DNA from: Roseivirga sp.
GTDB taxonomy: Bacteria > Bacteroidota > Bacteroidia > Cytophagales > Cyclobacteriaceae
Assembly: GCA_021404565.1 (NCBI GenBank)
Contig: JAAWWF010000026.1
Span: 124,001-188,000, forward strand
Reading direction: 5' to 3'
DNA length: 64,000 bases
Below the pieces are notes generated by a model. The model had not been told where the DNA came from. It saw only the letters and a program-made list of their open reading frames with translations, and made no database searches. Positions 37,819 through 52,567 of the stretch are shown in pieces. The stretch's first letter is position 1. Each line of letters opens with the position of its first letter. The position numbers and the translations under genes were made by a program.

Positions 37819-37988
37819 CTGATTAATGGATAAGCAATCCGATCATTAATTTTCTTTTCTTTGAGAAAGGCCTATTGGGTATTTGGCTAAATTGAAATAG
37901 ATTCTGGAATCAGCAGAACACTGAAAGTGATTTTTAACAAACCGAAACGAAGCTTGGTTTCTACCAGGTTTGCTTGCAGAAAACAACC

Positions 37989-39521
37989 ATGAATTTTTTC
38001 AGATCTTCTATAAAATTGATCCTCTTAGGGTTTTTATTGGTCCTCATCAGCACTTGTAGCACAGCACCTGTAAAAGAAACAAAGCCCAACATTCTCTGGA
38101 TATTGCTGGAAGATACTGCTCCTCTGCTAAGTGCCTACGGAACCACCATTATTTCTACACCCAACATTGATTCGTTGGCAGATAATGGCATACGCTTCAC
38201 CAATGCCTTTATGCCCGCACCCGTTTGTTCACCCAGCCGGTCAAGCATGATTACCGGAGTGATGTCTACCACACTGGGTTTGCATAATCACCACAGTGCG
38301 CGCACACCGGAGTCTGCCATTTATTTGCCCGATTCTGTAAAAACCATCCCTGAAGTGTTTAAGGAGGCGGGTTATTTCACCTTTAACAATGGAAAGGACG
38401 ACTACAACTTCACCTATGACCGAAAAGACCTCTACAACCAGGACTATATGCAGCATGCATTGTACGGCAAGAAGGGAGTAAACCTGGATTTCTCAGAGCT
38501 TAAAAATAAGACTCCTTTTTTCGGCCAGGTACAGCTTTCAGGGGGCAAGGAAATATTCTCACGTACCTTTAAAGAAAGAGTAGGTACTCCCGTAGACCGA
38601 AGCAAAGTAGAACTTCCACCTTATTTACCCAATCATCCGGCAATTATTGAAGAATATGCCAATCACCTGGATGCCATACAAATTACCGATAGAAAGGTAG
38701 GTGCAATCATAGAAGACCTCAGGAAAAACGGGCTCCTTCACAATACCATTGTCTTCTTTTTCTCAGATCATGGTATGCGCATGACTAGGAACAAGCAGTT
38801 TTTGTATGATGGGGGCCTTCATGTGCCGCTGATCATGGCGGATTTCCGGGATAAGTCGGAAACAGAAAAGGGCTTGGTCAACCAAGAATTAGTCAGTGGT
38901 TTGGACCTTGGGCCAACCTCCCTGGGGCTGGCAGGCATTGAAGTTCCTGCCTATATGGAGGGGCTGGATGTTTTTGACGAAAAAACCGGGAACAGGGAGT
39001 ATGTAATTTCTACCAGAGATCGCTGTGATTTTACAATTGATCGCATCCGTTCCGTAAGGTCAAAGAAGTACAAATACATCCGCAACTTTATGACCGACAG
39101 ACCTTATACCCAGCCAACCTATATGGATGTAGATGGTGTTGAATTTGTAAAGGTGACCAAACAGCTACATGCAGAAAATAAGCTCAACGAGGTGCAAAGT
39201 CTGTTCTTCTCCGACATACGCCCGGCAGAGGAGCTGTATGATTTAGAAAAGGACCCTTATGAGCTAAATAATCTGGCCGGGGACCCTGAGCATGCTGGAA
39301 GATTATCAGAATATGCGGCCATTCTGGACCAATGGATTGAAGATACCAATGATCAGGGGCAATATCCCGAGGAAGAAGGCCTGAAGCTTATGTTGGGCAT
39401 TTGGGGTGACCATGCTGTAAACCCTGAATATGAGGCATTAAGAAAGAAATATCCCGATTTAGCGAGCTCACAGTTTTATCTCAAAAGCTCTGGATGGAAA
39501 AAGGTCAACGATAAGGATTAG
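37989..39521 (+). CDS. Secreted type I sulfatase
   Basis: This protein has about 510 residues from ATG 37989 (a TTG at 37974 is also open). It has an N-terminal signal with a possible lipobox (LISTCS), then NILWILLEDTAP, the first metal site in the ED form seen in N-sulfoglucosamine sulfohydrolase-like sulfatases. CSPSR near residue 80 is the motif whose Cys becomes formylglycine, and VFFFSDHGMR is the second metal site. It removes sulfate from a glycan or other organic sulfate in the periplasm. No sulfatase-maturing enzyme gene is in the window. It precedes the plugless SusC barrel gene by 140 bases on the same strand. Confidence 0.93.
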   Translation: MNFFRSSIKLILLGFLLVLISTCSTAPVKETKPNILWILLEDTAPLLSAYGTTIISTPNIDSLADNGIRFTNAFMPAPVCSPSRSSMITGVMSTTLGLHNHHSARTPESAIYLPDSVKTIPEVFKEAGYFTFNNGKDDYNFTYDRKDLYNQDYMQHALYGKKGVNLDFSELKNKTPFFGQVQLSGGKEIFSRTFKERVGTPVDRSKVELPPYLPNHPAIIEEYANHLDAIQITDRKVGAIIEDLRKNGLLHNTIVFFFSDHGMRMTRNKQFLYDGGLHVPLIMADFRDKSETEKGLVNQELVSGLDLGPTSLGLAGIEVPAYMEGLDVFDEKTGNREYVISTRDRCDFTIDRIRSVRSKKYKYIRNFMTDRPYTQPTYMDVDGVEFVKVTKQLHAENKLNEVQSLFFSDIRPAEELYDLEKDPYELNNLAGDPEHAGRLSEYAAILDQWIEDTNDQGQYPEEEGLKLMLGIWGDHAVNPEYEALRKKYPDLASSQFYLKSSGWKKVNDKD

Positions 39522-39661: not shown

Positions 39662-42532
39662 ATGAGATCAATCATTACCATGCTCCTTCTGCTATGCTGC
39701 TATGCCCAATCCTCCGGGCAGGAAAGAACAATAAGCGGCCAACTCACCGATTCAAGTGGCCTGCCACTACCCCAGGTAACCATTCTGATCAAAGGCACCA
39801 CCATCGGAACCGCCACTGATGCTGATGGCAACTATTCCATCAAAGTACCCATAGGTGCCACCCTGGTTTTCCGATACCTGGGCTTTGCTACCCGTGAAGT
39901 AGTCGTTACCGAAGACAACCTGAAGCCTGCCCGTAGCACAGGAAAAGCATCGAAAAAACGAAAAAAGGAGAAAAAACCCAGCCCGATTTCTCAGTCACTG
40001 TACCAAGACGCTATTCCCGAAAATCAGCCGGGGGTAGCCAGGTTAGGCCCTCAATCCCCCACCTACAGGGTCAATGGAAACCTGAGCATACCCAATCTGA
40101 AGTCCATCAGGAAACTAGGAAATACCTACCGCCTCAGGATGTACCCTCATTATTATGACAAGGCGGTCTTCGGTTTAGAGTTTTCCACCTCCTTTACTCT
40201 GGACAAGGTATTCAGGCTTCCCACCTTGCAGCAGAGCTTTGCTCAGGGGCGGGCGGTCAACGGAAACCTGATCTGGAGGGGGCCCGAAACAGGTGAGCTT
40301 TTCTCCTGGGGGCCGGAAATACGCTCATTGAGTTTTGACGGCAGTGATTATCCCTATGATCAAAACGGGCGACTCATACCCGGAGCAGGGGGTAAACCTG
40401 CCTCATCATATAATCCTCAGTCATTCTTCAGAACCGGGTATACCACCTCTAATGAATTGATCATGAGTGTTCCCGGGCCTGGTAACAGCAGGGTACTGGT
40501 TGATATTGGCCACAAAGCACAGCAAGGGGTGATACCCAATGCTGACTATCGTAAGACCAACCTTTCTCTTGACCTGGAAGGTTATAAGCTCAGCCAGCAA
40601 CTAAGCCTCCGTGCTTCCTTCGACTATAATCATTCCAACGGGCGACTCCTTTCCAGAGGAGCCAACATAGCGTCCATTGTGGGGAGTGTCTACCGGACCC
40701 CAACCACTTTCGACAATACAAACGGCCTGTCAACCAAATCAGCCCTGGTAAACCCGGGTTCTTATGAACTAGCCAACGGAGGCCCCAGAACTCATGCCCC
40801 TGGTGAGGCAGATAATCCCTTTGGCCTGGCGAGCACCGTACCCGATGAGGATAAAGCTGATCGCCTGCTTTCTGCCCTGCAGTTCTCATACGCACCAGAC
40901 GGCCCTTTCAACTTCTTATTACAGGCCAATGTTGACCATCAGAAAAACCAATCTGCTTTTGGTATAGCTCCGGGGTATTCTGGTTTTACTGTGGGAAGAC
41001 TCACCGAGCGTGATAACCGCCAAACCTTCACCAATGCGAGCTTAACATCCAACTATGAACACAACGCCTGGCCGGGGCAATTGAAGCTAAGTCTTACCTT
41101 TCAAAGCCAATGGCTGAGCCAGGAGTTGAATAGAATTGACGGACTAGATTTCACTCAAACCGAAACTTTTGACGACATACTCGGAGCCAGTGAAATAGAT
41201 TTCACAGACGAAAGACTCAACAGAAATACCCATGAGATACTTGTCAATGCACAATATGAATTCCGGGATTGGCTCAGGGCGAAGCTTACCAACCGCACTT
41301 ATTTCTCCAGTACCGTAGACTACGGCCAATTCAGCAACTTCTTTCCCTTAGCGAGCCTGAACATCGGTCTATCTGATTTATTGAATCTCTACGATATGGA
41401 GCTTAATATCTATACCTCCTTTGGACGAAGTATACGGGAATCTCCCCTTGTCTATAACAACTGGTCATATGGTTCTACGGTCATTCCTGTACAGGGCTAC
41501 AACAGTTTTTATGAATCCGGAGAATTGTTCTCAAACACTCCGTTGGCTCCTGAAACCGGCCTGCAATTCGAAACCGGCCTCGATTTTAACCTTCATTACG
41601 CACTCAGTTTCGAGTTTGCCTATTTCAACAATCAAACTAATGACTTTGTAGCACCTGCCGTAAGTAATGGCAACTTTGGGCTTAGTAATCTCGCCACAGT
41701 CCGAAACAAGGGTTTCACCGTGGGCCTCGGCTATCAGACATACCGCAGTACCTTCAACTGGAGTACGAAGCTCAACTGGAGTGCTTACACGAGCCGGGTA
41801 GAAAGCCTGGATCAGGCCTTTGATAAAGTTGCTTTAGCTGGCTTTACAAATGTTCAAACCGTTTTGGCAAAAGGGGAATCACTTGGAGCTATCTATGGAA
41901 GTACTTACCTGAGAAATGGAAGCGGTCAAAGGCTTATCGGGCCTGATGGCTTTCCGCTAAAAGATTCTGACCTGAAAAAGATCGGAGACCCCATTCCTGA
42001 TTGGCTATTGGGTTGGTCATCAGACTTTCGGTTCAAAAACCTCAAGCTCTCACTCGTAGTTGATTTTAAGCAAGGCGGTGACATGTGGAATGGCACCAAC
42101 AGCTCGCTCGATTACCTGGGGAGGTCTTCCACTACGGGAGAGCTCAGAAATACCACCAATCATATATTCTCAGGCGTGACTTCGAACGGTCAGGTCAATA
42201 CCACTCCGGTTAGTTTTTATGACCCCAGCCAGCCCCTCTCAGATAACCGGTGGGTACGATATGGATGGGATGGTGTAGCGGAAGATTACATTGAGGACGC
42301 TTCATGGATTCGACTCAGTGAGGTCTCTCTCACTTATACCCTGGTTCGAAGAAATAAATCAATCAGGGAAATGACCTTCTCACTGACGGGTCGTAACCTC
42401 TTCCTTATCACCCCCTATGGTGGCTCCGACCCGGCCAGCACCCTCTTTGGCTATACAACGGGCAACGGCCTCGACCTCTTCAATGCTCCTTCAACCCGTA
42501 GCTATTCGCTACAAGTGTCCATTAAACTCTGA
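39662..42532 (+). CDS. SusC-like outer-membrane barrel without a plug domain
   Basis: This protein has about 956 residues from ATG 39662, which gives a normal signal peptide. A carboxypeptidase-regulatory-like domain at 21-85 (SGQLTDSSGLPLPQVTILIK) is as in SusC. In SusC a plug domain of about 130 residues follows; here there is only a short basic linker (KASKKRKKEKK, 95-105) and about 60 residues before the barrel, which starts with the SusC-typical strand LEFSTSFTLDKVFRLPTLQ. The C-terminal part is SusC-like to the last residue (TGRNLFLITPYGGSDP, ending LQVSIKL). No VVVTGYG or YIIDG motif is present. The missing plug is found in the next gene, 5 bases downstream. Confidence 0.88.
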   Translation: MRSIITMLLLLCCYAQSSGQERTISGQLTDSSGLPLPQVTILIKGTTIGTATDADGNYSIKVPIGATLVFRYLGFATREVVVTEDNLKPARSTGKASKKRKKEKKPSPISQSLYQDAIPENQPGVARLGPQSPTYRVNGNLSIPNLKSIRKLGNTYRLRMYPHYYDKAVFGLEFSTSFTLDKVFRLPTLQQSFAQGRAVNGNLIWRGPETGELFSWGPEIRSLSFDGSDYPYDQNGRLIPGAGGKPASSYNPQSFFRTGYTTSNELIMSVPGPGNSRVLVDIGHKAQQGVIPNADYRKTNLSLDLEGYKLSQQLSLRASFDYNHSNGRLLSRGANIASIVGSVYRTPTTFDNTNGLSTKSALVNPGSYELANGGPRTHAPGEADNPFGLASTVPDEDKADRLLSALQFSYAPDGPFNFLLQANVDHQKNQSAFGIAPGYSGFTVGRLTERDNRQTFTNASLTSNYEHNAWPGQLKLSLTFQSQWLSQELNRIDGLDFTQTETFDDILGASEIDFTDERLNRNTHEILVNAQYEFRDWLRAKLTNRTYFSSTVDYGQFSNFFPLASLNIGLSDLLNLYDMELNIYTSFGRSIRESPLVYNNWSYGSTVIPVQGYNSFYESGELFSNTPLAPETGLQFETGLDFNLHYALSFEFAYFNNQTNDFVAPAVSNGNFGLSNLATVRNKGFTVGLGYQTYRSTFNWSTKLNWSAYTSRVESLDQAFDKVALAGFTNVQTVLAKGESLGAIYGSTYLRNGSGQRLIGPDGFPLKDSDLKKIGDPIPDWLLGWSSDFRFKNLKLSLVVDFKQGGDMWNGTNSSLDYLGRSSTTGELRNTTNHIFSGVTSNGQVNTTPVSFYDPSQPLSDNRWVRYGWDGVAEDYIEDASWIRLSEVSLTYTLVRRNKSIREMTFSLTGRNLFLITPYGGSDPASTLFGYTTGNGLDLFNAPSTRSYSLQVSIKL

Positions 42533-42537
42533 TCCAC

Positions 42538-45500
42538 ATGAAAAAGACTTATCTATCTCTGGGTCTGTTGACCCTCTTGATTCTCGCTTCTGCCTTTCAG
42601 TCAACCGATCCTTCCCCTTTTCTGAAAAAACTGCGCCAACAGCTCGCCAGCTACAATGCCGACTTTAAGGAGGAAAAGGTATACCTGCAAACGGACAAGC
42701 CCTTCTACAAACCGGGGGAAACCATTTGGTTCAATGCCTTTGTACTCAACAGTACAGACCACAAGCCCACTGCGACCAGTGACGTGCTGTATGTAGAGCT
42801 GATTGACCCCAAAGGAAATGTGGCAGCGAAGGCAGACCTGGTAATCAGGGAGGGTACAGCCCATGCAGAGTTTCAACTTGACGAAAACGATCCCGGGGGT
42901 CTCTACCAAATCAGGGCCTATACTCAGTGGATGAAGAATTTTGATGAGCAGGCCTTCTTCAAAAAGACCATTACTGTACAAAGGGTCATTACTCCAAGGC
43001 TGCTCCTCAACCTGGATTTTGAAAAAGAGGCTTACGGTCCGGGAGATGAGGTAACCGCAAAACTGAAGGTAGAAAACCTGAAAAACGAGACAATGGATGC
43101 TTCGCGCACTGCCTATACTGTTTCAATTGATGGGAGCCAGATTCTTTCCTCAGTGGTGAAAACAGACAGCAAAGGTGTGGCCACCATACAGTTTACCTTG
43201 CCCGGTGACCTAAGCTCCACCAATGGGCTGCTGAATGTCATAGTCTCCGCGGATGGATATGAGGAATCTATTTCACGCTCTGTACCCATTGTGCTCGACA
43301 AGATCAATCTTACATTTTTCCCCGAAGGGGGTCACCAGGTAAAGGACGTTTCAGGCAAAATGGCTTTTAAAGCTTTGAACGAATTTGGCAAAGGCGCTGA
43401 TATTTCCGGGAGTATCCTTGATCAGGATAACAACAAAGTCACCAGCTTTGAAAGCTTCCATATGGGGATGGGAGCCTTTGCTTTCAAACCAGAATCAGAT
43501 CAGCAATACTTTGCCCGAATAGAAAGCCCCAGGGGCAACGAAACGCTGATCCCATTGCCAAAGGCACTAAACACGGGCCTGAGCCTTAACCTTGATAGCA
43601 GGGAGGCGCATGGCCTTAGCTGGAAAATCCATAGCCCCTTTGATGGCGAAGTCATTCTGGTGGGGAATGCTCATGGGGAGATGATTTACGCAGAGAAAAT
43701 CACTGTAAAAAAAGGGCTGAATACGGTGACTGTTCCCACAGATAACTTTGCCGCAGGCATAGGAGTATTTACCCTCTTTAACTACCAGGGTATTGAACAG
43801 TGTGAACGACTGGTATTTCTCAATCAGGATAGAGGACTAAACATTGAGCTAACAACAGACAAAGATAAATACCAGCCACGTGAAAAGGTGGACCTGAAGG
43901 TTAAAACCACAGATCACCAGGGAAAACCTGTTCGCGCCAAGTTATCATTAGCAGTGGTCGATGATCAACTGATCTCCTTTGCTGATGATAAGCAGGACAA
44001 TATACTCTCAGCCTTATTACTAGGTTCCGAGCTCAAGGGTGAGGTTCAGGAACCCTCTTTCTACTTTGACCCCGAAGAACCAAAGGCCACAGAGGCTCTG
44101 GATTACCTGCTGCTCACCCAGGGTTGGAGACGGTTTACCTGGAAAGAAGTGCAAAAGCCTACTCGAAAAATTACCTACCTCCCCGAAAAAAACAAAGATG
44201 TTTTTGGCAGGGTCTATCACCAAAAAAATGGTGCCGGCTTCGCCACAGAGGTAAGCCTGATTGAGCTTGGTGGCAAAAAGAGGATCGAAACTGTACAAAC
44301 CACTAAAAACGGTGAGTTTATATTTAAAAATACGGACCCAACCGTTTCCTTCCTTCTGGTGACAAAAAAGCCCGGGAAAATAACACGGCAAAAAGAGCAG
44401 TCATTCAGTATCTCTCTCAACGATCGGGCGGGTACGGTATGGGTTCCTGAAAAAACAGACCTGAGTAAGACCAGGAAAAAGGTGACTCAGCTCAAGCCTG
44501 AGAGTCCTGTAGACAAGAACGCCAGCGTAAACATCAGCCTGTCTGCGGATGCCACCAGCCTGGGTGAGGTGGTGGTTACGGGCTATGGTGTTGTAGAGAA
44601 AAAAGCCATAACAGGCAGTGTGGTGGTAGTGGAAAGAACTCCGGCATTATTGCCTAAACAGGCACTGAGCAACGTTCTCGAAGGCCGGATTCCCGGTTTG
44701 ATGGTCCAAAGGAATAATGGCAATCCCGGCTCTGCCAATAATATCGTCATCAGGGGTGTGAATACACTCGCCAATAACAATCACCCACTCTACATTATTG
44801 ACGGCTATCCCATCAGCTCCAGCCTCAACAACGCCTTTTCGAATGGCAGCATGATCAGCCCTTTGGATATTGAGTCTATTGAGGTGATGTCTTCCCCTGA
44901 AGCGGCAGCACTTTATGGCAATGCAGGTGCCAATGGCGTCATTGTCATTACCACGAAGTCACGGCTCGGGTATCGACCCTATTATGGCAGTGATGGGAGA
45001 AAACAAGGCAAGTATACCAGCATCAGGATCAATCCGCGCCAGTTTACTGTGAGCAGAGAGTTTTACATCCCTCCGCCAACGGATGGAATAACCGAAATCA
45101 GAAACGACTTCAGAACTACGGTTCACTGGGCCCATACCCTGGTGACAGATAAAAAGGGAGAGTCTAAAGTTTCCTTTTATAACAACGATGCCGTAAGTGC
45201 TTTCAGAATCACTGCCGAGGGCTTTTCTTCAGGTGGTTCCATTGGCCGAAAAGAGCAGGTATACTATACACAATTGCCGCTGTCGCTTGATGTAAAATTC
45301 CCACAGTTTCTGGGCTTTGAAGATGTGCTCAGGCTTCCGGTACAGCTTAGAAATGAGACCAATAAAAACGTCACGGGTAAATTAAAACTGAAACTGGACG
45401 AAGGAATGACTTCAGAAGGTGAGCTGCTTCAAAATGTGAGCCTTCCACCCAACAAGGCGACTACCGTCTATTATACTATTCGGTCGGAGGGTAAGCAGGG

Positions 45501-47163
45501 CAAGTTCCCCGTGCAGCTTACCCTGGAATCAAGAGATTATACCGATGAGATTCGCCATACTTTTGAGGTACGGCCTGTAGGTTTTCCTGTTCAGTACAGT
45601 TTCTCCGCCAAAGCACTGGACCAAACTGTCTCTCTCACCATGAGTGATGTGGAGCAAAACTCCGCCACGGCTGTGCTCACAACCTATCCCAATATGATAA
45701 GTGACCTCTTCAGCGGGGCGGAATCAATACTAAGACAGCCCTATGGGTGCTTTGAGCAGGTATCTTCAAGTACATTTCCAAATATCCTGGCGCTTCAGTT
45801 CATGCGTGAGTCTGAATCAATCGACAAGGGTCTTCAAAGAAAAGCAATGAGCTATATTAAAAACGGTTATCGAAGACTTACGGCCTACGAGATTGAAGGC
45901 GGAGGTTTTGAGTGGTTTGGTCGTCCTGCAGCTCATGAAGGTTTGAGTGCCTTTGGTTTGATTCAGTTCCATGAAATGAAGAAGGTATTCCCGGGAGTAA
46001 GTGAAGATATGATGAATCGCACCCGCGACTGGCTCATGAAGAAAAGAGATGGCAAAGGAGGGTTCGAACAACACAAGGGCAAGTATGGTTTTTCAGCCGC
46101 CAAAGCAGAAGTAACCAACGCCTACATCACCTATGCCTTGTCAGAAACGGGAACCCGAAACCTCGAAAAAGAATACCAAACGGCATACAAGGAGGCCACA
46201 GAAAGCCGAGACATGTACAGAATGGCATTGGTAGCTCATACCGCCTTTAACCTTGATAAAATGGAGGAATACAAAACCCTGATTCAGGTATTCAGAGAAC
46301 AGATCACAAATCCGGATTTCAAGGTTTTACAGGCCGATCATTCTCTGGTCAGAAGCTATGGAAAATCTCTTCAGACTGAAATTACCGCACTGTGGACAGT
46401 CGCTCTTTTGAAAGACCAGCAACCTGACCTCAGTTTAATACAGCTTTGTATTGATCGTATCGTCAGCAGCAGAAGATACGGGGGCTTTGGCTCAACACAG
46501 GCCACCTCCCTGGCACTGAAAGCGCTTACGGAATATGCTCATCTGATCAAGGCAAAGGAAGAAGATGGAGCAATAGAATTGCTTGTAGATAATAGCCACA
46601 TAGAAAGCCTGACCTATAAAGCTGGAAACCGGGAAAAACTCAGCACCTCTAATTTTGCCGATCTGCTAAATCACAATGGAAAACAGCAACTGAAGGTGCG
46701 TTTTAAGGATACCAAAGAGGCTCTACCTTATTCAGTAGATATTCAGTGGTATACAAAAACGCCTTCTTCCAGTAAGGAATGTAAAGTGCGCATTGCCACC
46801 AGCCTGAGTGCTTCAAGGGTAAAGGTGAACGAAACCGTAAGACTCACTGCCACACTCAGCAATACGACTGCCGGGGGAGTTCCTATGACCATGGGCATTA
46901 TTGGCATTCCGGCCGGGCTGAGTCTGCAACCATGGCAGCTTAAGGAAATGCAGGAAAAAGGAGTGTTTGACTTCTATGAAATCACCGATGGCAATCTGGT
47001 GGTTTACTACCGTGAGATGGGTCCTGAAGCTCAGCATGTCATCAACCTCGACCTGAAAGCGGATATTCCGGGTGAGTATTTAGGCACTGCCAGCTCTGCT
47101 TACCTCTATTATACTGATGAGTTTAAGCATTATACCAAGGGTGAGAAGATTGTGGTAGACTAG
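42538..47163 (+). CDS. Alpha-2-macroglobulin-like protein with an inserted SusC-type plug domain
   Basis: This 1541-residue protein has a Sec signal and no lipobox. An MG2 domain (about 45-150, VYLQTDKPFYKPGETIWF) and further macroglobulin domains run to about 510. A carboxypeptidase-regulatory-like part spans 548-600. A complete TonB plug occupies 676-808 (GEVVVTGYGV, LEGRIPGLMVQRNNGNPGS, PLYIIDGYPI, ESIEVMSSPEAAALYGNAGA, GVIVITTKS). The A2M core (about 840-1060) follows, then the thioester motif GCFEQ with Cys1071, a thioester domain to about 1340, and C-terminal beta domains. The plug sits about where bait regions lie in protease-trapping macroglobulins. The gene is 5 bases from the plugless barrel gene, so the two proteins probably form one complex. 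Confidence 0.9.
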   Translation: MKKTYLSLGLLTLLILASAFQSTDPSPFLKKLRQQLASYNADFKEEKVYLQTDKPFYKPGETIWFNAFVLNSTDHKPTATSDVLYVELIDPKGNVAAKADLVIREGTAHAEFQLDENDPGGLYQIRAYTQWMKNFDEQAFFKKTITVQRVITPRLLLNLDFEKEAYGPGDEVTAKLKVENLKNETMDASRTAYTVSIDGSQILSSVVKTDSKGVATIQFTLPGDLSSTNGLLNVIVSADGYEESISRSVPIVLDKINLTFFPEGGHQVKDVSGKMAFKALNEFGKGADISGSILDQDNNKVTSFESFHMGMGAFAFKPESDQQYFARIESPRGNETLIPLPKALNTGLSLNLDSREAHGLSWKIHSPFDGEVILVGNAHGEMIYAEKITVKKGLNTVTVPTDNFAAGIGVFTLFNYQGIEQCERLVFLNQDRGLNIELTTDKDKYQPREKVDLKVKTTDHQGKPVRAKLSLAVVDDQLISFADDKQDNILSALLLGSELKGEVQEPSFYFDPEEPKATEALDYLLLTQGWRRFTWKEVQKPTRKITYLPEKNKDVFGRVYHQKNGAGFATEVSLIELGGKKRIETVQTTKNGEFIFKNTDPTVSFLLVTKKPGKITRQKEQSFSISLNDRAGTVWVPEKTDLSKTRKKVTQLKPESPVDKNASVNISLSADATSLGEVVVTGYGVVEKKAITGSVVVVERTPALLPKQALSNVLEGRIPGLMVQRNNGNPGSANNIVIRGVNTLANNNHPLYIIDGYPISSSLNNAFSNGSMISPLDIESIEVMSSPEAAALYGNAGANGVIVITTKSRLGYRPYYGSDGRKQGKYTSIRINPRQFTVSREFYIPPPTDGITEIRNDFRTTVHWAHTLVTDKKGESKVSFYNNDAVSAFRITAEGFSSGGSIGRKEQVYYTQLPLSLDVKFPQFLGFEDVLRLPVQLRNETNKNVTGKLKLKLDEGMTSEGELLQNVSLPPNKATTVYYTIRSEGKQGKFPVQLTLESRDYTDEIRHTFEVRPVGFPVQYSFSAKALDQTVSLTMSDVEQNSATAVLTTYPNMISDLFSGAESILRQPYGCFEQVSSSTFPNILALQFMRESESIDKGLQRKAMSYIKNGYRRLTAYEIEGGGFEWFGRPAAHEGLSAFGLIQFHEMKKVFPGVSEDMMNRTRDWLMKKRDGKGGFEQHKGKYGFSAAKAEVTNAYITYALSETGTRNLEKEYQTAYKEATESRDMYRMALVAHTAFNLDKMEEYKTLIQVFREQITNPDFKVLQADHSLVRSYGKSLQTEITALWTVALLKDQQPDLSLIQLCIDRIVSSRRYGGFGSTQATSLALKALTEYAHLIKAKEEDGAIELLVDNSHIESLTYKAGNREKLSTSNFADLLNHNGKQQLKVRFKDTKEALPYSVDIQWYTKTPSSSKECKVRIATSLSASRVKVNETVRLTATLSNTTAGGVPMTMGIIGIPAGLSLQPWQLKEMQEKGVFDFYEITDGNLVVYYREMGPEAQHVINLDLKADIPGEYLGTASSAYLYYTDEFKHYTKGEKIVVD

Positions 47164-47282: not shown

Positions 47283-48785
47283 ATGCCTTATACTATGAAA
47301 GTCACTTCCTGCCTCTTCAGTCTTGCTATCTTATTGGCGCTGGCTGCCTGTGATACTCAACCTGAAAAGCTCTCAGCAGACATCTACGAAACCTCTGCCT
47401 CAGGCAATAAGCTTAAAAAGCTAAGTAATTTTAGCCTGAAAGGCGAGGCTGGCACCATCAAGCTACTCCCGGAAGAAAGCTATCAAACCATTACAGGTTT
47501 TGGTGGTGCTTTTACGGAATCTTCCGCCTGGTTGCTCAACCAGCTGGGAGCAGATAACAGGGCTAAAGTACTGGAAGCATATTTCGGTGAGGACGGAGCA
47601 AAATACTCCCTTACCAGAACGCATATCAACTCCTGCGATTTCTCATTAGGTAATTATTCTTACGCATCAGTAGCCGGAGATACCGACCTGGAGAATTTTA
47701 CCATTGATGAAGACAGGGACGACCTTATCCCTATGATCAGGGACGCCATGGCTGTGTCTGAAGATGGGTTTAAGATTCTGGCATCACCCTGGACTGCCCC
47801 GCCCTGGATGAAAGACAATAAGGATTGGAAGGGAGGAAAGCTGCTACCAGAATATTACGATACCTGGGCACTCTACTTTTCAAAATACATCAATGCCTAT
47901 CAAAAAGAGGGGATTGATATCTGGGGTCTGACGGTAGAAAATGAGCCCCTCGGCAACGACAGCAACTGGGAAAGCATGCACTATACCGCTGAGGAAATGA
48001 CCGACTTTGTGCAGCACTATCTCGGGCCCAAAATGGAAGCTGAGGGGCATGACGTGAAGATTTTAGGCTATGACCAAAACCGCGACCATGAGTTGGAAGA
48101 ATTTGTCGGATCTATGTATGCCAGTGAGGCCTCATCCAAATACTTTGATGGTACGGCTGTACATTGGTACGCCAGCACGGTTGACTATTTTCCGGAGTAT
48201 TTGAACATGGCCCACGATGCCGCCCCGGGCAAATACCTGATCCAGTCAGAAGCCTGTGTGGATGCAGAGGTACCTCACTGGCAGGAGGACTCTTGGTACT
48301 GGCAAAAAGAGGCCACCGACTGGGGCTGGGACTGGGCACCGCCAGAGCTGAAAAAAGATCACCCCAAATACGTTCCGGTATATCGCTATGCACGTGACAT
48401 CATAGGCTCTTTGAACAACTGGGTAGATGGCTGGATCGACTGGAATATGGTACTTGACCGCCAGGGAGGACCTAACTGGGCTAAAAACTGGTGTATAGCT
48501 CCGGTCATTGTAGACCCGGATAATGATGAGGTCTATTTCACACCCATTTATCAGATTATGACCCATTTCAGCAGGTATATTCGTCCGGGAGCCGTGCGCA
48601 TAGGCTTCGATCTTTCAGATCAGGACCTGATGGTGACTGCCGCTAAAAACCCCGATGGTTCTATTGCTGTGGTGGTGCTGAATATGGGAGGCGATTCCAA
48701 AGATCTGCAGCTCAGCCTGGATGGTAAGTCTCTGGATTTCCAAATCAGTGCTCAGGCCATACAGACAGTGGTGATACCAGCTTAA
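47283..48785 (+). CDS. GH30-family glycosidase lipoprotein (glucosylceramidase-like)
   Basis: This 500-residue protein has the lipobox LAAC (Cys23). It carries GH30 hallmarks: ITGFGGAFTESSAW, RTHINSCDFSLGNYSY, SPWTAPPWMKDN, the acid/base Glu219 in TVENEP and the nucleophile Glu323 in IQSEACVD. The C-terminal beta domain is complete. Relatives cleave beta-glucosidic or beta-1,6-linked substrates. As a lipoprotein it is likely held in the outer membrane. It follows the macroglobulin gene by 120 bases and may belong to the same functional group as the sulfatase. Met5 is an alternative start. Confidence 0.93.
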   Translation: MPYTMKVTSCLFSLAILLALAACDTQPEKLSADIYETSASGNKLKKLSNFSLKGEAGTIKLLPEESYQTITGFGGAFTESSAWLLNQLGADNRAKVLEAYFGEDGAKYSLTRTHINSCDFSLGNYSYASVAGDTDLENFTIDEDRDDLIPMIRDAMAVSEDGFKILASPWTAPPWMKDNKDWKGGKLLPEYYDTWALYFSKYINAYQKEGIDIWGLTVENEPLGNDSNWESMHYTAEEMTDFVQHYLGPKMEAEGHDVKILGYDQNRDHELEEFVGSMYASEASSKYFDGTAVHWYASTVDYFPEYLNMAHDAAPGKYLIQSEACVDAEVPHWQEDSWYWQKEATDWGWDWAPPELKKDHPKYVPVYRYARDIIGSLNNWVDGWIDWNMVLDRQGGPNWAKNWCIAPVIVDPDNDEVYFTPIYQIMTHFSRYIRPGAVRIGFDLSDQDLMVTAAKNPDGSIAVVVLNMGGDSKDLQLSLDGKSLDFQISAQAIQTVVIPA

Positions 48786-49066: not shown

Positions 49067-51550
49067 TCAAAACCCAAAATTCACATACAATGTAGGCGTA
49101 AAAGGAATGCCCACCGTGTTTATGCGGGAGCCCCCGGGTACACTGAGTGATTGATTGAGCCGAACATTTCGCCTGTCGAACAGATTGAGAATAGAAACAC
49201 CCGTTTCAAGATCAGTGGCCCCCAGCTTTAAGCGATACTGAAAAGCCAGATCAGTGCGCCAGTAAGGCGTGATATCCTGCAGGTCGGGCCGGAAAGTATT
49301 GTTGGGAAATCCAGAGCCATAAACATTGGCAAAGGAAAACTGAAGCTTGTCAAAATTGAAAATGGCCACCGTTTTAAGCTCATGTCGCTGGCTTTGGGGT
49401 GCCTGTTGAAAGTCTGAGAATTGGTTGCCAACCCTGAAGCGCTCCTCTACCTCCGATAAGGTGTAAGACAACCAAAAATCATGGGTCTTTATCTTCTTTT
49501 TGGCAAAAACTTCCAGCCCTGTCGTACGAGCTTCACCTTCAGCAAACCTGGTCATTCCATTCCGACTGACGAAGAATCGTCCGAAACCTTCTACTTCTTT
49601 ATAAAAGGCTTCCAGGCCCAACTCTAAACCGTTGACTCTATAGGTAGTGCCTAAAACAGAATGATTGGAGCTGAGCACATTCGTGGTAACATTATCAGCC
49701 AGTTGCCATACATCCGATTGATTTCCCAGCTCATCCCTGATAGTATTTTTAGAGACAAACTGATTGTATAGGCCCCAACCTGCATGCAGGTTCCATCCCG
49801 GAGTCAGGTCATAGCGGAGATTGACTCGCGGTTGCAGAAAACTCTCGGTGCCCCCGTAAAACAAGTCGGCTTTCAAACCGAGCTGCATCGAGAGTTTATC
49901 GGTCCACTGAATATCATCATGTGCGTATACAGAAACCCGACTAGCGGTTGCTTCGGTGTCTTCCAAAATAACCCGGTCGGCATTGGAGGCCAAAGAAGCC
50001 CTGTTGGCAATAAAGGCACCGCTAAGCTGTAACTGATGCTTTTGAGTAGCCGCGAAGCGATGAGTAAGCTGTGCTTTGTACTCTTCAATCACGTTTTTCC
50101 AGTTATACCGCCTGAGTGTGTCACCATTGGGTCGTCCGCCTTCCAGTACAAAATAGTTGGCGGAAAACTCAGGCTTGTACTCGCTCTGAGAGAGTGTCAG
50201 TTTAGAAATCCCTCCCTTGCTCCAGTTGTGTGCGTATCGAACAGAATTGCCTGTTTGCACAGAGTTGAGATTAATGTCCTGCACAGCCGTGCCCCGGAAT
50301 CTCAGCCTGAGGTCACCGCTATACTCATCTTCACTGTAAATACTGCTAATCTCAAGCCGGTCAGCATCACCTAAAGCAGTCGTGAGTTTCAGGTTCAAAT
50401 CTGAGTAGTCGTATTGGGGAACAATCACATCCTCATCATCTCCAAAACCAGCAGAAAGATCGAAGGCTTCGAAAAGGGTTTTCCTGGCAGCCACTTGCAG
50501 GGTAGCCTTCTTAGAAAGCGGCAGGTTCACATAAGCATTTGCGAGCTGGTTGGTAAAGCTCACCCGTGCGCCTGCACTTTGCAGATCACCTGAAGTGCCT
50601 TCCATAAGAACGACCCCCCCCACCCGATCGCCATAAGGCACATTATAACCTCCTTTATAAACCTCTACATTTTTGATCATATAGGGGTTAACCCTGCCCA
50701 TATCATCGTTGATTCCCCAGCTGTTAAAAAGGCTGATGCCATCGTAAATCACATGGGTTTGACCTGCGTATGAGCCCCAGATCACAAAATCGGCAATAGA
50801 CTCACCAGCCGCCATCACGCCCGGGTACAGACGCAGGTTGTTAAAGATCAGGTTATCACTGAGGCCGGGAATCAGGTTATTACTGATATCATTGAAGCGG
50901 ATATGCCCCGCTTTCTCCCCCACATTGGTAAGGGGAGTAATGCCTCCATTGGCGATTACCTCCACAGCTCCCAGCTCCATCAGCCTGGGGTTTAGTATAA
51001 TTCTGAGCTTATTGCTATGCCCGATCAGTGTATCTGCCGGCTCATAGCCCAGGCTTTGAAATAGTCCTTGTTCCTGTCTTTGGCCGGATTTAAACGAAAA
51101 CCGACCATTTTCATCGGCTACAATGCCACGGCCGCTGAGTTTTAAACTGCTAAAGGGCAATGGCTCGCCAGTACCCCTTTCAACAATCAAACCCTGATAG
51201 AGAAACACCGGAGGAGACTTGGGCCTCTCCGGTATTTTCTCAGCTGATAATTCGGATGCCGCATTGCTGCGAAAGACGTACACATCTCCAATCTTTTTGA
51301 AGTCAAGGTCGCATTTCTCAGCAAGGGCCTGGATGGCCAAATCCATGGATTTATACTGTTGCCGAATAGTGACCGGGCAGGCATTGGATAAGTCGGCATT
51401 AATAGAAATCTGAACCCCATAACGTTGGTTGAGATCCAGTAAAATTTCGTTTAGGAGCTCATCGGTATAGTCCAGCGACACCGACTGAGAAAATGACTTT
51501 GCCGAGGTGCACAAAATCAGAATGAGGACAAAAAGGACTTTGGTTTTCAA
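49067..51550 (-). CDS. TonB-dependent outer-membrane receptor with an N-terminal STN signalling domain
   Basis: This is an 827-residue protein. A signal peptide (1-22) is followed by a secretin/TonB N-terminal (STN) domain at about 23-95 (LNEILLDLNQRYGVQISI), a carboxypeptidase-regulatory-like domain at 115-190, a plug at about 205-315 (VYDGISLFNSWG, NVEVYKGGYNVPYGDRVGGV) and a beta barrel ending YVNFGF. The STN domain signals to FecR, whose gene lies 15 bases upstream in the operon, so this is a transducer like FecA. The ligand is unknown. The start is TTG; an in-frame stop is just upstream and no ATG is available. Confidence 0.93.
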   Translation of the reverse strand: MKTKVLFVLILILCTSAKSFSQSVSLDYTDELLNEILLDLNQRYGVQISINADLSNACPVTIRQQYKSMDLAIQALAEKCDLDFKKIGDVYVFRSNAASELSAEKIPERPKSPPVFLYQGLIVERGTGEPLPFSSLKLSGRGIVADENGRFSFKSGQRQEQGLFQSLGYEPADTLIGHSNKLRIILNPRLMELGAVEVIANGGITPLTNVGEKAGHIRFNDISNNLIPGLSDNLIFNNLRLYPGVMAAGESIADFVIWGSYAGQTHVIYDGISLFNSWGINDDMGRVNPYMIKNVEVYKGGYNVPYGDRVGGVVLMEGTSGDLQSAGARVSFTNQLANAYVNLPLSKKATLQVAARKTLFEAFDLSAGFGDDEDVIVPQYDYSDLNLKLTTALGDADRLEISSIYSEDEYSGDLRLRFRGTAVQDINLNSVQTGNSVRYAHNWSKGGISKLTLSQSEYKPEFSANYFVLEGGRPNGDTLRRYNWKNVIEEYKAQLTHRFAATQKHQLQLSGAFIANRASLASNADRVILEDTEATASRVSVYAHDDIQWTDKLSMQLGLKADLFYGGTESFLQPRVNLRYDLTPGWNLHAGWGLYNQFVSKNTIRDELGNQSDVWQLADNVTTNVLSSNHSVLGTTYRVNGLELGLEAFYKEVEGFGRFFVSRNGMTRFAEGEARTTGLEVFAKKKIKTHDFWLSYTLSEVEERFRVGNQFSDFQQAPQSQRHELKTVAIFNFDKLQFSFANVYGSGFPNNTFRPDLQDITPYWRTDLAFQYRLKLGATDLETGVSILNLFDRRNVRLNQSLSVPGGSRINTVGIPFTPTLYVNFGF

Positions 51551-51565
51551 GTGAATCGGATCAAA

Positions 51566-52567
51566 TCATTGCTTCCTGATAAGGTATGAACGCACATCCA
51601 CCTTTTCAAATATAAGCCCGTTGGCTACGCATACAATCTCAAGGGCCTCTTCAACTTTCATGTTTCTGTTGAAGGCTCCTGAGAAATAGGCATTATCAAT
51701 GGTGCCATTTTCTGTGCTTAATGAAATATCATACTGCCTTTTGAGATCTTCAAAGACCTTAGCCACAGGGGTCGTGTTGTAAATAAACTGGCCGGTTCTC
51801 CAGCCCAGAATCGCGGTTCTGGTGACTACTCCCTGACTGGTCTGCGTTGAGATATTACTTCCCTGCTTTGTCAGTCTATTCAACTCCAGCACGGCCATTT
51901 CTCCTTTGGTCAGTGTTACCTGACGCTGAGTACCTTCCACTATCATTTGGCTACTCACCTTTACCTTACCTTCTTCGCAGAGCACGGTAAAGTTATCGCC
52001 ACGGGCATACACATTAAATTCAGTACCGAGTACTTCAGTACTCCCCAAAACCGCATCTACTGTAAATTTCTTGCCTTTAGCTACCACAAAATAGGCTTCT
52101 CCATTCAGCTTTACCGCCCTGTCGATTTTCCACCAATAGGGGTGATATTTAATGGTAGTCGCAGCATTCAAATGTACTTCAGAACCATCAGGCAAAGTAT
52201 GGCTGGTAAACTCTCCCGGAGCCACATGCACCGTGGTCGTGTAAAAGCGTGCCATCAATCCCGCACATAAAATTAATGCCAGAGAAGCCGCAATGCTCAT
52301 AAAGGTGCGACTTAACCGAATGCTCCTTGTTGGCTTTACTTCCTCGGCTGGAAACTCAATGATCTGAGCATCATCCTTCCCTTCGTTCTCAACTGACTCA
52401 CTTTCACCGGCTGTCTCAACATCCTGCTCTTCAGACTCTTCACCCAAAACACCTTCCATGGAAGCCCATACATCTGCTTTAGATCTTGAATAAGAGAATT
52501 CCAGATTGGAAAAGAGCTCCTGCTCATGACCTTCGGTCAAATCACTTTTGTCTTTTTTATCTTTCAT
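51566..52567 (-). CDS. FecR-family anti-sigma factor
   Basis: This 333-residue protein has an acidic cytoplasmic N-terminus (EESEEQDVETAGESESVE), one membrane helix at about 88-107 and a periplasmic FecR domain (about 110-215, PDGSEVHLNAATTIKYHPYW). The C-terminal domain is the one usual in Bacteroidota FecR (DUF4974, about 260-330, FEDLKRQYDIS). It holds the sigma factor inactive until the STN receptor signals. Its start overlaps the end of the sigma gene by 11 bases, and the receptor follows after 15 bases. Confidence 0.93.
   Translation of the reverse strand: MKDKKDKSDLTEGHEQELFSNLEFSYSRSKADVWASMEGVLGEESEEQDVETAGESESVENEGKDDAQIIEFPAEEVKPTRSIRLSRTFMSIAASLALILCAGLMARFYTTTVHVAPGEFTSHTLPDGSEVHLNAATTIKYHPYWWKIDRAVKLNGEAYFVVAKGKKFTVDAVLGSTEVLGTEFNVYARGDNFTVLCEEGKVKVSSQMIVEGTQRQVTLTKGEMAVLELNRLTKQGSNISTQTSQGVVTRTAILGWRTGQFIYNTTPVAKVFEDLKRQYDISLSTENGTIDNAYFSGAFNRNMKVEEALEIVCVANGLIFEKVDVRSYLIRKQ

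Follow-up and report, generated by a model that had tools for sequence, protein, structure and literature searches.

Does a natural TonB-dependent receptor exist whose plug and barrel are made as two polypeptides? TonB-dependent receptors are textbook one-chain machines, and split plug/barrel receptors are, to our knowledge, known so far only as engineered ones. The question was raised by a 64,000-nucleotide stretch of Roseivirga sp. DNA (contig JAAWWF010000026.1, positions 124,001 to 188,000), hereafter the window, which corresponds to G000:C34:124001-188000 in our genome sets and comes from an assembly of 8.57 Mb in 81 contigs. In this window, the gene for a plugless SusC-type barrel is followed, 5 bases away and on the same strand, by the gene for an alpha-2-macroglobulin that carries a TonB-receptor plug. 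A first-pass annotation, made from the letters alone, had proposed one receptor split over two proteins with the plug acting in trans. The linker and co-occurrence results described below support this proposal, and we infer that the plug physically inserts into the barrel. The two genes therefore probably encode one natural outer-membrane TonB-dependent receptor in two polypeptides, and in many Bacteroidota, an empty barrel and a plug-carrying macroglobulin seem to make up an outer-membrane transporter.

The barrel gene (39662..42532, + strand, ATG at 39662) encodes a protein of 956 residues and was identified by profile matches, a structure model, and fold comparison. The product begins with a CarboxypepD_reg-like domain (residues 24-86, 39731..39919, Pfam PF13715) and ends with the barrel (residues 171-956, 40172..42529), for which 22 strands were counted by us among the elements listed for the model. 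Residues 172-956 matched positions 213-981 of TIGR04056, the NCBI SusC model of 981 positions, with 238.1 bits, which is below the whole-protein cutoff of 368.25. The structure model, with a predicted local distance difference test score (pLDDT) of 88.5, showed a SusC barrel from which the plug fold was absent, and 718 of its residues were superposed on 5fq8 at 3.1 Å in the fold comparison. At the place of the TonB box and plug of ordinary SusC proteins, there is a low-confidence linker (residues 87-170, 39920..40171). In the model, residues 86-170 had pLDDT values mostly of 37-67, with residues 88-119 below 50, and formed two short strands along with short helical segments ahead of the first barrel strand, which starts at residue 171. 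No plug domain was found in the protein's own chain, as the TIGR04056 match begins only at position 213, and none of 50 barrel homologues matched Pfam Plug at an E value of ≤0.01. These results bear out the first-pass reading that the protein passes from a regulatory-like domain to the first strand without plug motifs, and the model of residues 86-170 together with the homologue search ruled out a plug hidden in the linker.

Two side observations concern this part of the protein. A motif like GVAxLxxxSPxY (window 40031-40066, residues 124-135) is kept in the linker of several plugless barrels and is a possible docking site for the macroglobulin. In addition, four Chitinophaga barrels (L239, L253, L260, and L266) are plugless and have only 807-817 residues, and the CarboxypepD_reg-like domain was not detected in them.

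The neighboring gene (42538..47163, + strand) encodes a plug-bearing thioester macroglobulin of 1,541 residues, which was assigned from Pfam, TIGR04056, and PDB sequence matches. Its macroglobulin part comprises an MG2 domain (residues 47-134, 42676..42939, PF01835), an A2M bait-region domain (residues 363-478, 43624..43971, PF07703), an A2M domain (residues 861-950, 45118..45387, PF00207), and a thioester domain (residues 1058-1333, 45709..46536, PF07678) with the motif CFEQ at residue 1071. With MG, bait-region, A2M, and thioester domains and CxEQ all present, the protein has the domain composition of a type I bacterial alpha-2-macroglobulin, and its later parts matched CD109, alpha-2-macroglobulin, and others in the sequence comparison with solved structures. 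The insert that precedes the A2M domain opens with a small Ig-like domain (residues about 555-617, 44200..44388), seen as strands in the model and matched by CarboxypepD_reg in 30 of the 56 members of the macroglobulin alignment. A low-confidence linker follows (residues 621-676, 44398..44565; pLDDT below 50 over residues 621-707), and the TonB-box-like motif EVVVTGYG, placed by motif position (residues 677-684, 44566..44589), stands just ahead of the plug (residues 691-808, 44608..44961). The plug was recognized by Pfam Plug (residues 691-801, 1e-15), which was also found in 55 of the 56 alignment members, by TIGR04056, and by the similarity of residues 657-808 to SusC chains of solved structures (5t3r, 1.5e-22, by sequence comparison).

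The two proteins are thus complementary pieces along a single SusC profile. Macroglobulin residues 655-808 correspond to TIGR04056 positions 58-205, covering the TonB box and plug (1.4e-46), and the barrel protein takes up the same profile at position 213. TonB box, plug, and barrel are all present once the pair is counted as one receptor. The first-pass annotation had located the plug motifs VVVTGYG, GRIPGLMV, PLYIIDGYP, and ESIEVM in the macroglobulin and had claimed that the parts lost from one protein sit in the other; its coordinates and motifs were correct, and the complementary profile pieces confirm the claim.

An assembly or frameshift error could, in principle, have broken a normal SusC gene and fused its plug to a neighbor. 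The recurrence of the same architecture reduces the probability of such an artifact to nearly nothing. When GTDB species genomes were searched by pattern with this barrel family as the seed, 402 relatives were obtained, and the best 80 loci were examined (L numbers; several of them are genomes that also occur in the G sets, for example, L187 and G009). These 80 loci comprised 68 plugless barrels with an adjoining macroglobulin gene, 10 ordinary SusC proteins with a plug, and 2 VIT-VWA fusions, the last 12 all having the plug in cis; as the best 80 of 402 are the closest relatives, 68 of 80 is not a frequency. The presence of this architecture at 68 loci, drawn from many assemblies, refutes the artifact, and a truncated SusC or a misassembly was ruled out on the same ground. 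The macroglobulin plug was in view at 66 of the 68 plugless loci, and the other two (L197 and L211) were cut by contig ends ahead of the plug. Both genes were on the same strand in all 66 pairs, with the barrel first in 64 and the macroglobulin first in 2, and their reading frames were −4 to +34 bases apart in 54 of the 66, most at 2-5. L199 and L231 were exceptions with broken macroglobulin open reading frames (ORFs). The organisms named in the titles of the scanned loci include Chryseolinea, Dawidia, Aquimarina, Winogradskyella, Kordia, Leeuwenhoekiella, Flavobacterium, Chryseobacterium, Chitinophaga, Saprospiraceae, and Bacteroidales. The barrel and macroglobulin genes travel together across several orders of Bacteroidota. 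An adjoining macroglobulin at 68/68 plugless loci indicates an association beyond chance. As a separate observation, the paired macroglobulin of L195 (L195:8437-16059, a Candidatus Azobacteroides sp. metagenome-assembled genome) has a strongly diverged plug (21 bits) and keeps a TonB-box-like motif.

The association was also examined in genome sets of the order and class. In these scans for both genes, two first-look candidates were scored per genome and only matches under the stated E values were listed, so that genomes with either gene alone could have been missed. A profile of 12 plugless barrels listed 10 plugless barrels and 21 other barrels in the 390 order genomes, and it listed those of G000, G742, and G459 and 21 further distinct barrels in the class genomes. 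All 42 other distinct barrel matches of the order and class had the plug in cis. The 10 order genomes with a plugless barrel were the same 10 that had a thioester macroglobulin with an intact plug. Co-occurrence across Bacteroidota, which the first-pass annotation had singled out as a check, was therefore observed both at the 68 scanned loci and in the order genomes, and numerous genomes holding one gene without the other, which it had named as contrary evidence, were not found.

The same picture was obtained with the macroglobulin as the starting point. Among 19 near genomes, there was one further plug-bearing thioester macroglobulin, in G009, with an adjoining plugless barrel. In 12 of the 390 order genomes, the alignment of a thioester macroglobulin ran through the plug without a break; in G109, such a protein was spread over two contig pieces. 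When fetched and aligned, the plug was intact in 10 of these 13 (G000, G263, G036, G052, G190, G182, G209, G105, G073, and G109, the start of the last being cut by a contig end) and decayed in 3 (G136, G114, and G059). The plugless barrel was not found in the three genomes with a decayed plug. Besides G000, the 395 class genomes showed an intact plug in G742, G749, and G459. Of the 14 intact-plug genomes (G009 included), 12 had the plugless barrel adjacent and one (G073) had it elsewhere, on another contig. Gene order was reversed in 2 of the 12 adjacent pairs (G190 and G182), indicating that adjacency is more than one inherited arrangement. In contrast, none of 20 plug-lacking thioester macroglobulins had the barrel nearby within the flanks checked (161 to 8,359 bases); for macroglobulins that were not fetched, plug absence was deduced from an interrupted alignment. 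Barrel adjacency thus differed between plug-bearing (11/11) and plug-lacking (0/20) loci (Fisher test, 1.2e-8, with loci treated as independent though related by descent). G209 and G105 carry both macroglobulin kinds, and the barrel stands beside the plug-bearing copy only. Two thioester macroglobulins (L087:4078-8712 and L088:4249-8889) have a decayed plug and a gained run of lysines and arginines; the plugless barrel was not found in their genomes.

Next, we compared the state of the plugs using a profile of 53 cis plugs from which macroglobulin plugs were excluded. The plugs of 63 paired macroglobulins scored 21-136 bits (median, 94), with 110 bits for G749 and 76 bits for G073, whereas the three decayed plugs scored 7.6-9.8 bits and plug-lacking macroglobulins 5 or less. 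ORFs without a thioester domain reached up to 66 bits, and 11 of 70 scored above 25; at least 12 members of this group are fragments cut from paired proteins. Of the 63 split plugs, 59 (94%) retain the TonB-box glutamate, compared with 2 of 6 plugs of short macroglobulins. The plug arginine that is residue 739 in the window protein is kept in 63/63 split plugs and also in the 6 short-macroglobulin plugs. Short macroglobulins form a widespread family (L033-L050 and L102-L107) of about 800-1,200 residues with MG2, a bait-region domain, and a mostly diverged plug. Their A2M domain is limited to its beginning, they have no thioester domain, and no split-type barrel was found in the fetched stretch around them.

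The descent of the two halves was followed in trees, which leave out L195, L199, L217, and L231, as well as L123 and L146 as repeats; of the 63 pairs, 55 were included in the structure alignments together with the window. All 63 split barrels grouped as one clade in the barrel tree (0.999), to which three one-chain VIT-type proteins attached (0.976). The plug tree set the 53 SusC plugs apart from the split, VIT, and short-macroglobulin plugs (0.973). Both halves branch near the same one-chain relatives and thus point to a common SusC branch, which is what a single splitting of one receptor would give. It is also possible that the plug was recruited from that branch in a second step.

Several results weigh against a single receptor in two chains. 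The split plugs formed no single clean clade. Charged residues conserved in cis SusC had a mean retention of only 39% in the split barrels (22 columns) and 56% in the split plugs (9 columns). The plug region of the macroglobulin model had only middling confidence. G749 has an intact plug, and the plugless barrel was not found in it, its contig ending inside the macroglobulin gene; it is the single genome of this kind. The bit-score gaps between plugless and cis-plug barrels are partly training effects: since most of the plugless sequences went into the plugless-barrel profile, the scores it gives are not independent evidence, and an earlier profile without them gave 846 bits for G109 and 658 bits for G073 versus 692 bits for one cis-plug SusC. 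In addition, plug and barrel distances correlated at 0.48 in the 63 split pairs versus 0.85 in the 53 one-chain SusC proteins, and with the remainder of the macroglobulin controlled for, the partial correlation was 0.10 (permutation P = 0.06).

Since the split pairs correlate less than one-chain SusC proteins, co-variation failed as positive proof of plug-barrel contact. The macroglobulin N-terminal half tracked the barrel best (0.94; partial correlation, 0.72 given the thioester part), which may reflect contact or merely shared descent. The weak plug-barrel co-variation would suit a reading in which the two proteins never touch, the plug having been copied into the macroglobulin, where it persists as a remnant, with the barrel open or served by another plug, and so would the diverged plugs of the shorter thioester-less macroglobulins that have no split-type barrel nearby. 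However, the pairing at every plugless locus, the matched presence in the order genomes, and the decay of the plug where the plugless barrel was not found make such a lack of contact very improbable. Selection on the plug also speaks against it: between the near relatives G036 and G052, the ratio of nonsynonymous to synonymous substitution rates was low in the plug (0.24, from 9 nonsynonymous and 12 synonymous changes) and 0.14 in the barrel, few changes being available.

The gene neighborhood was also examined. No SusD gene was found in the window or beside any of 66 split barrels with three SusD queries, whereas SusD adjoined 10/10 cis-plug barrels; one distant SusD-like ORF was present on L246 among the split loci. 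The macroglobulin gene occupies the usual place of SusD, and the absence of SusD beside the pair argues against ordinary glycan import. Clustering of the flanking ORFs of 66 loci gave no family present in more than 11 loci, and the commonest look like housekeeping genes by eye alone. We take the barrel and macroglobulin genes as a two-gene unit. Both results would also fit a plug that serves as an anchor only, holding the macroglobulin under a permanently closed barrel as a tethered protease trap without transport. The same genomic evidence applies to this explanation as to the two-chain receptor, and the thioester motif CFEQ, which is kept in 66 of 67 paired macroglobulins, agrees with it. 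The TonB-box glutamate kept in nearly all split plugs would be needless for a static anchor, and we regard an anchor without transport as a serious but less probable explanation.

Other genes stand near the pair in the window. A sulfatase gene (37974-39521) lies ahead of it and a GH30 glycoside hydrolase gene (47283-48785) past it; they are perhaps chance neighbors, and, judged by first residues, neither is among the ORFs beside the pair in G009, the nearest relative with the pair. On the − strand, 49067-52567 encodes a TonB receptor with a FecR_C-like N-terminal domain, and the adjoining gene resembles, by eye, one for a FecR-type anti-sigma factor. ORFs with similar N termini are also present near the barrel-macroglobulin pair in G009 (L031). 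A plasmid search of the window gave no match.

How might a two-chain receptor work? Both ends of a TonB-receptor plug face the periplasm, and a plug can therefore be an internal insert of a periplasmic protein. Paired macroglobulins start with signal-like hydrophobic stretches. A lipoprotein anchor as in Escherichia coli YfhM was not seen: a loose lipobox pattern occurred in only 1 of 66 paired macroglobulins, and the window protein had none among its first residues. Together with the plug topology, this leads us to favor a periplasmic location of the macroglobulin over display. The macroglobulin would be exported to the periplasm and would offer its plug to the barrel from below. The plug would then close the pore, supply the TonB box, and set the thioester domain under the pore mouth.

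The first-pass annotation had also considered that the macroglobulin might gate the pore, respond to proteolysis, or be secreted or displayed through the barrel. Secretion or display would make it a cargo with the plug domain as an address tag. A TonB-dependent transporter can export a protein, as described for PopC and Oar of Myxococcus in the accessible part of PMC6434023. In the present case, the plug lies inside the chain, about 690 residues preceding it and 730 following it; the scarcity of the lipobox pattern does not suit display; and plug decay coincides with barrel absence, a pattern more in keeping with a pore component than with a tag. Export of the macroglobulin as cargo is accordingly unlikely to a high degree.

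Returning to the two-chain receptor, the plug occupies the position of the bait-like linker of other macroglobulins. More speculatively, TonB pulling on the plug would also pull the macroglobulin at the place where its relatives are triggered by bait cleavage, and pore opening could be coupled to the capture of an incoming protein or peptide. That this force replaces protease cleavage and exposes the thioester is a doubtful, though not negligible, extension of the model. If it were true, pore opening and covalent capture would be one energized step, an import gate with a built-in trap. As to the ligand, our guess is that a protein, peptide, or protease would suit a macroglobulin. More generally, if the pair is one receptor, plug and barrel can be passed on separately in a class of receptors otherwise made as one chain, and a native system would be available for studying plug movement during transport. 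Outer-membrane import would also be linked to a complement-like protein whose bacterial role is poorly known, and seemingly truncated SusC barrels and macroglobulins with a stray plug should be read together.

Finally, we compared the pair with known systems. No description of a natural plugless-barrel/macroglobulin pair was found in the open-license literature, some of the searches being weak as negatives. The accessible text of two papers on Bacteroidota β-barrel assembly machinery (BAM), which deal with other barrel complexes (PMC12611786 and PMC12578637), contains no plugless SusC with a macroglobulin, and that of a 2024 review of TonB receptors (PMC11658791) describes no natural split receptor. 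SusC/RagA transporters (TIGR04056; structures of BT1762-1763, BT2261-2264, and RagAB) share the barrel fold, the CarboxypepD_reg-like N-terminal domain, and the plug/TonB-box sequence with the pair; here, the plug and TonB box are on the other polypeptide and a macroglobulin gene stands where SusD would be. Bacterial alpha-2-macroglobulins (E. coli YfhM, Salmonella A2M, and Pseudomonas aeruginosa MagD) have the MG2, bait-region, A2M, and thioester domains in common with the window protein, whose CxEQ is as in the Salmonella type. In P. aeruginosa, MagD is a periplasmic macroglobulin in complex with operon partners, according to the available part of PMC5764988. The window protein differs from these in the plug between its bait-region and A2M domains, in its outer-membrane barrel partner, and in the near absence of the lipobox among its paired relatives.

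The closest nonsplit barrels in the tree are CTD-VIT-VWA-plug-barrel proteins. Three one-chain VIT-VWA receptors (L132:5629-10671 [P0001], L234:6400-11382, and L252:6301-11238) have Pfam VIT and VWA between the N-terminal domain and the plug, and L268:4408-9279 is probably another, assigned by length and plug position only. The VIT-VWA module is of a kind known from the animal inter-alpha-trypsin inhibitor. Like the macroglobulin of the window, it is a large module ahead of the TonB box; these receptors differ in being one polypeptide, with VIT-VWA in place of the macroglobulin. FhuA has reportedly been reconstituted in vivo as a laboratory split receptor. For FpvAI, a soluble plug partly restores a plugless barrel in trans, as stated in the accessible part of PMC10994204, and this combination of a plugless barrel with a separately exported plug is the arrangement proposed here. 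The FpvAI and FhuA systems are engineered and have their plug outside any macroglobulin, whereas the plug of the Roseivirga pair is carried inside one.

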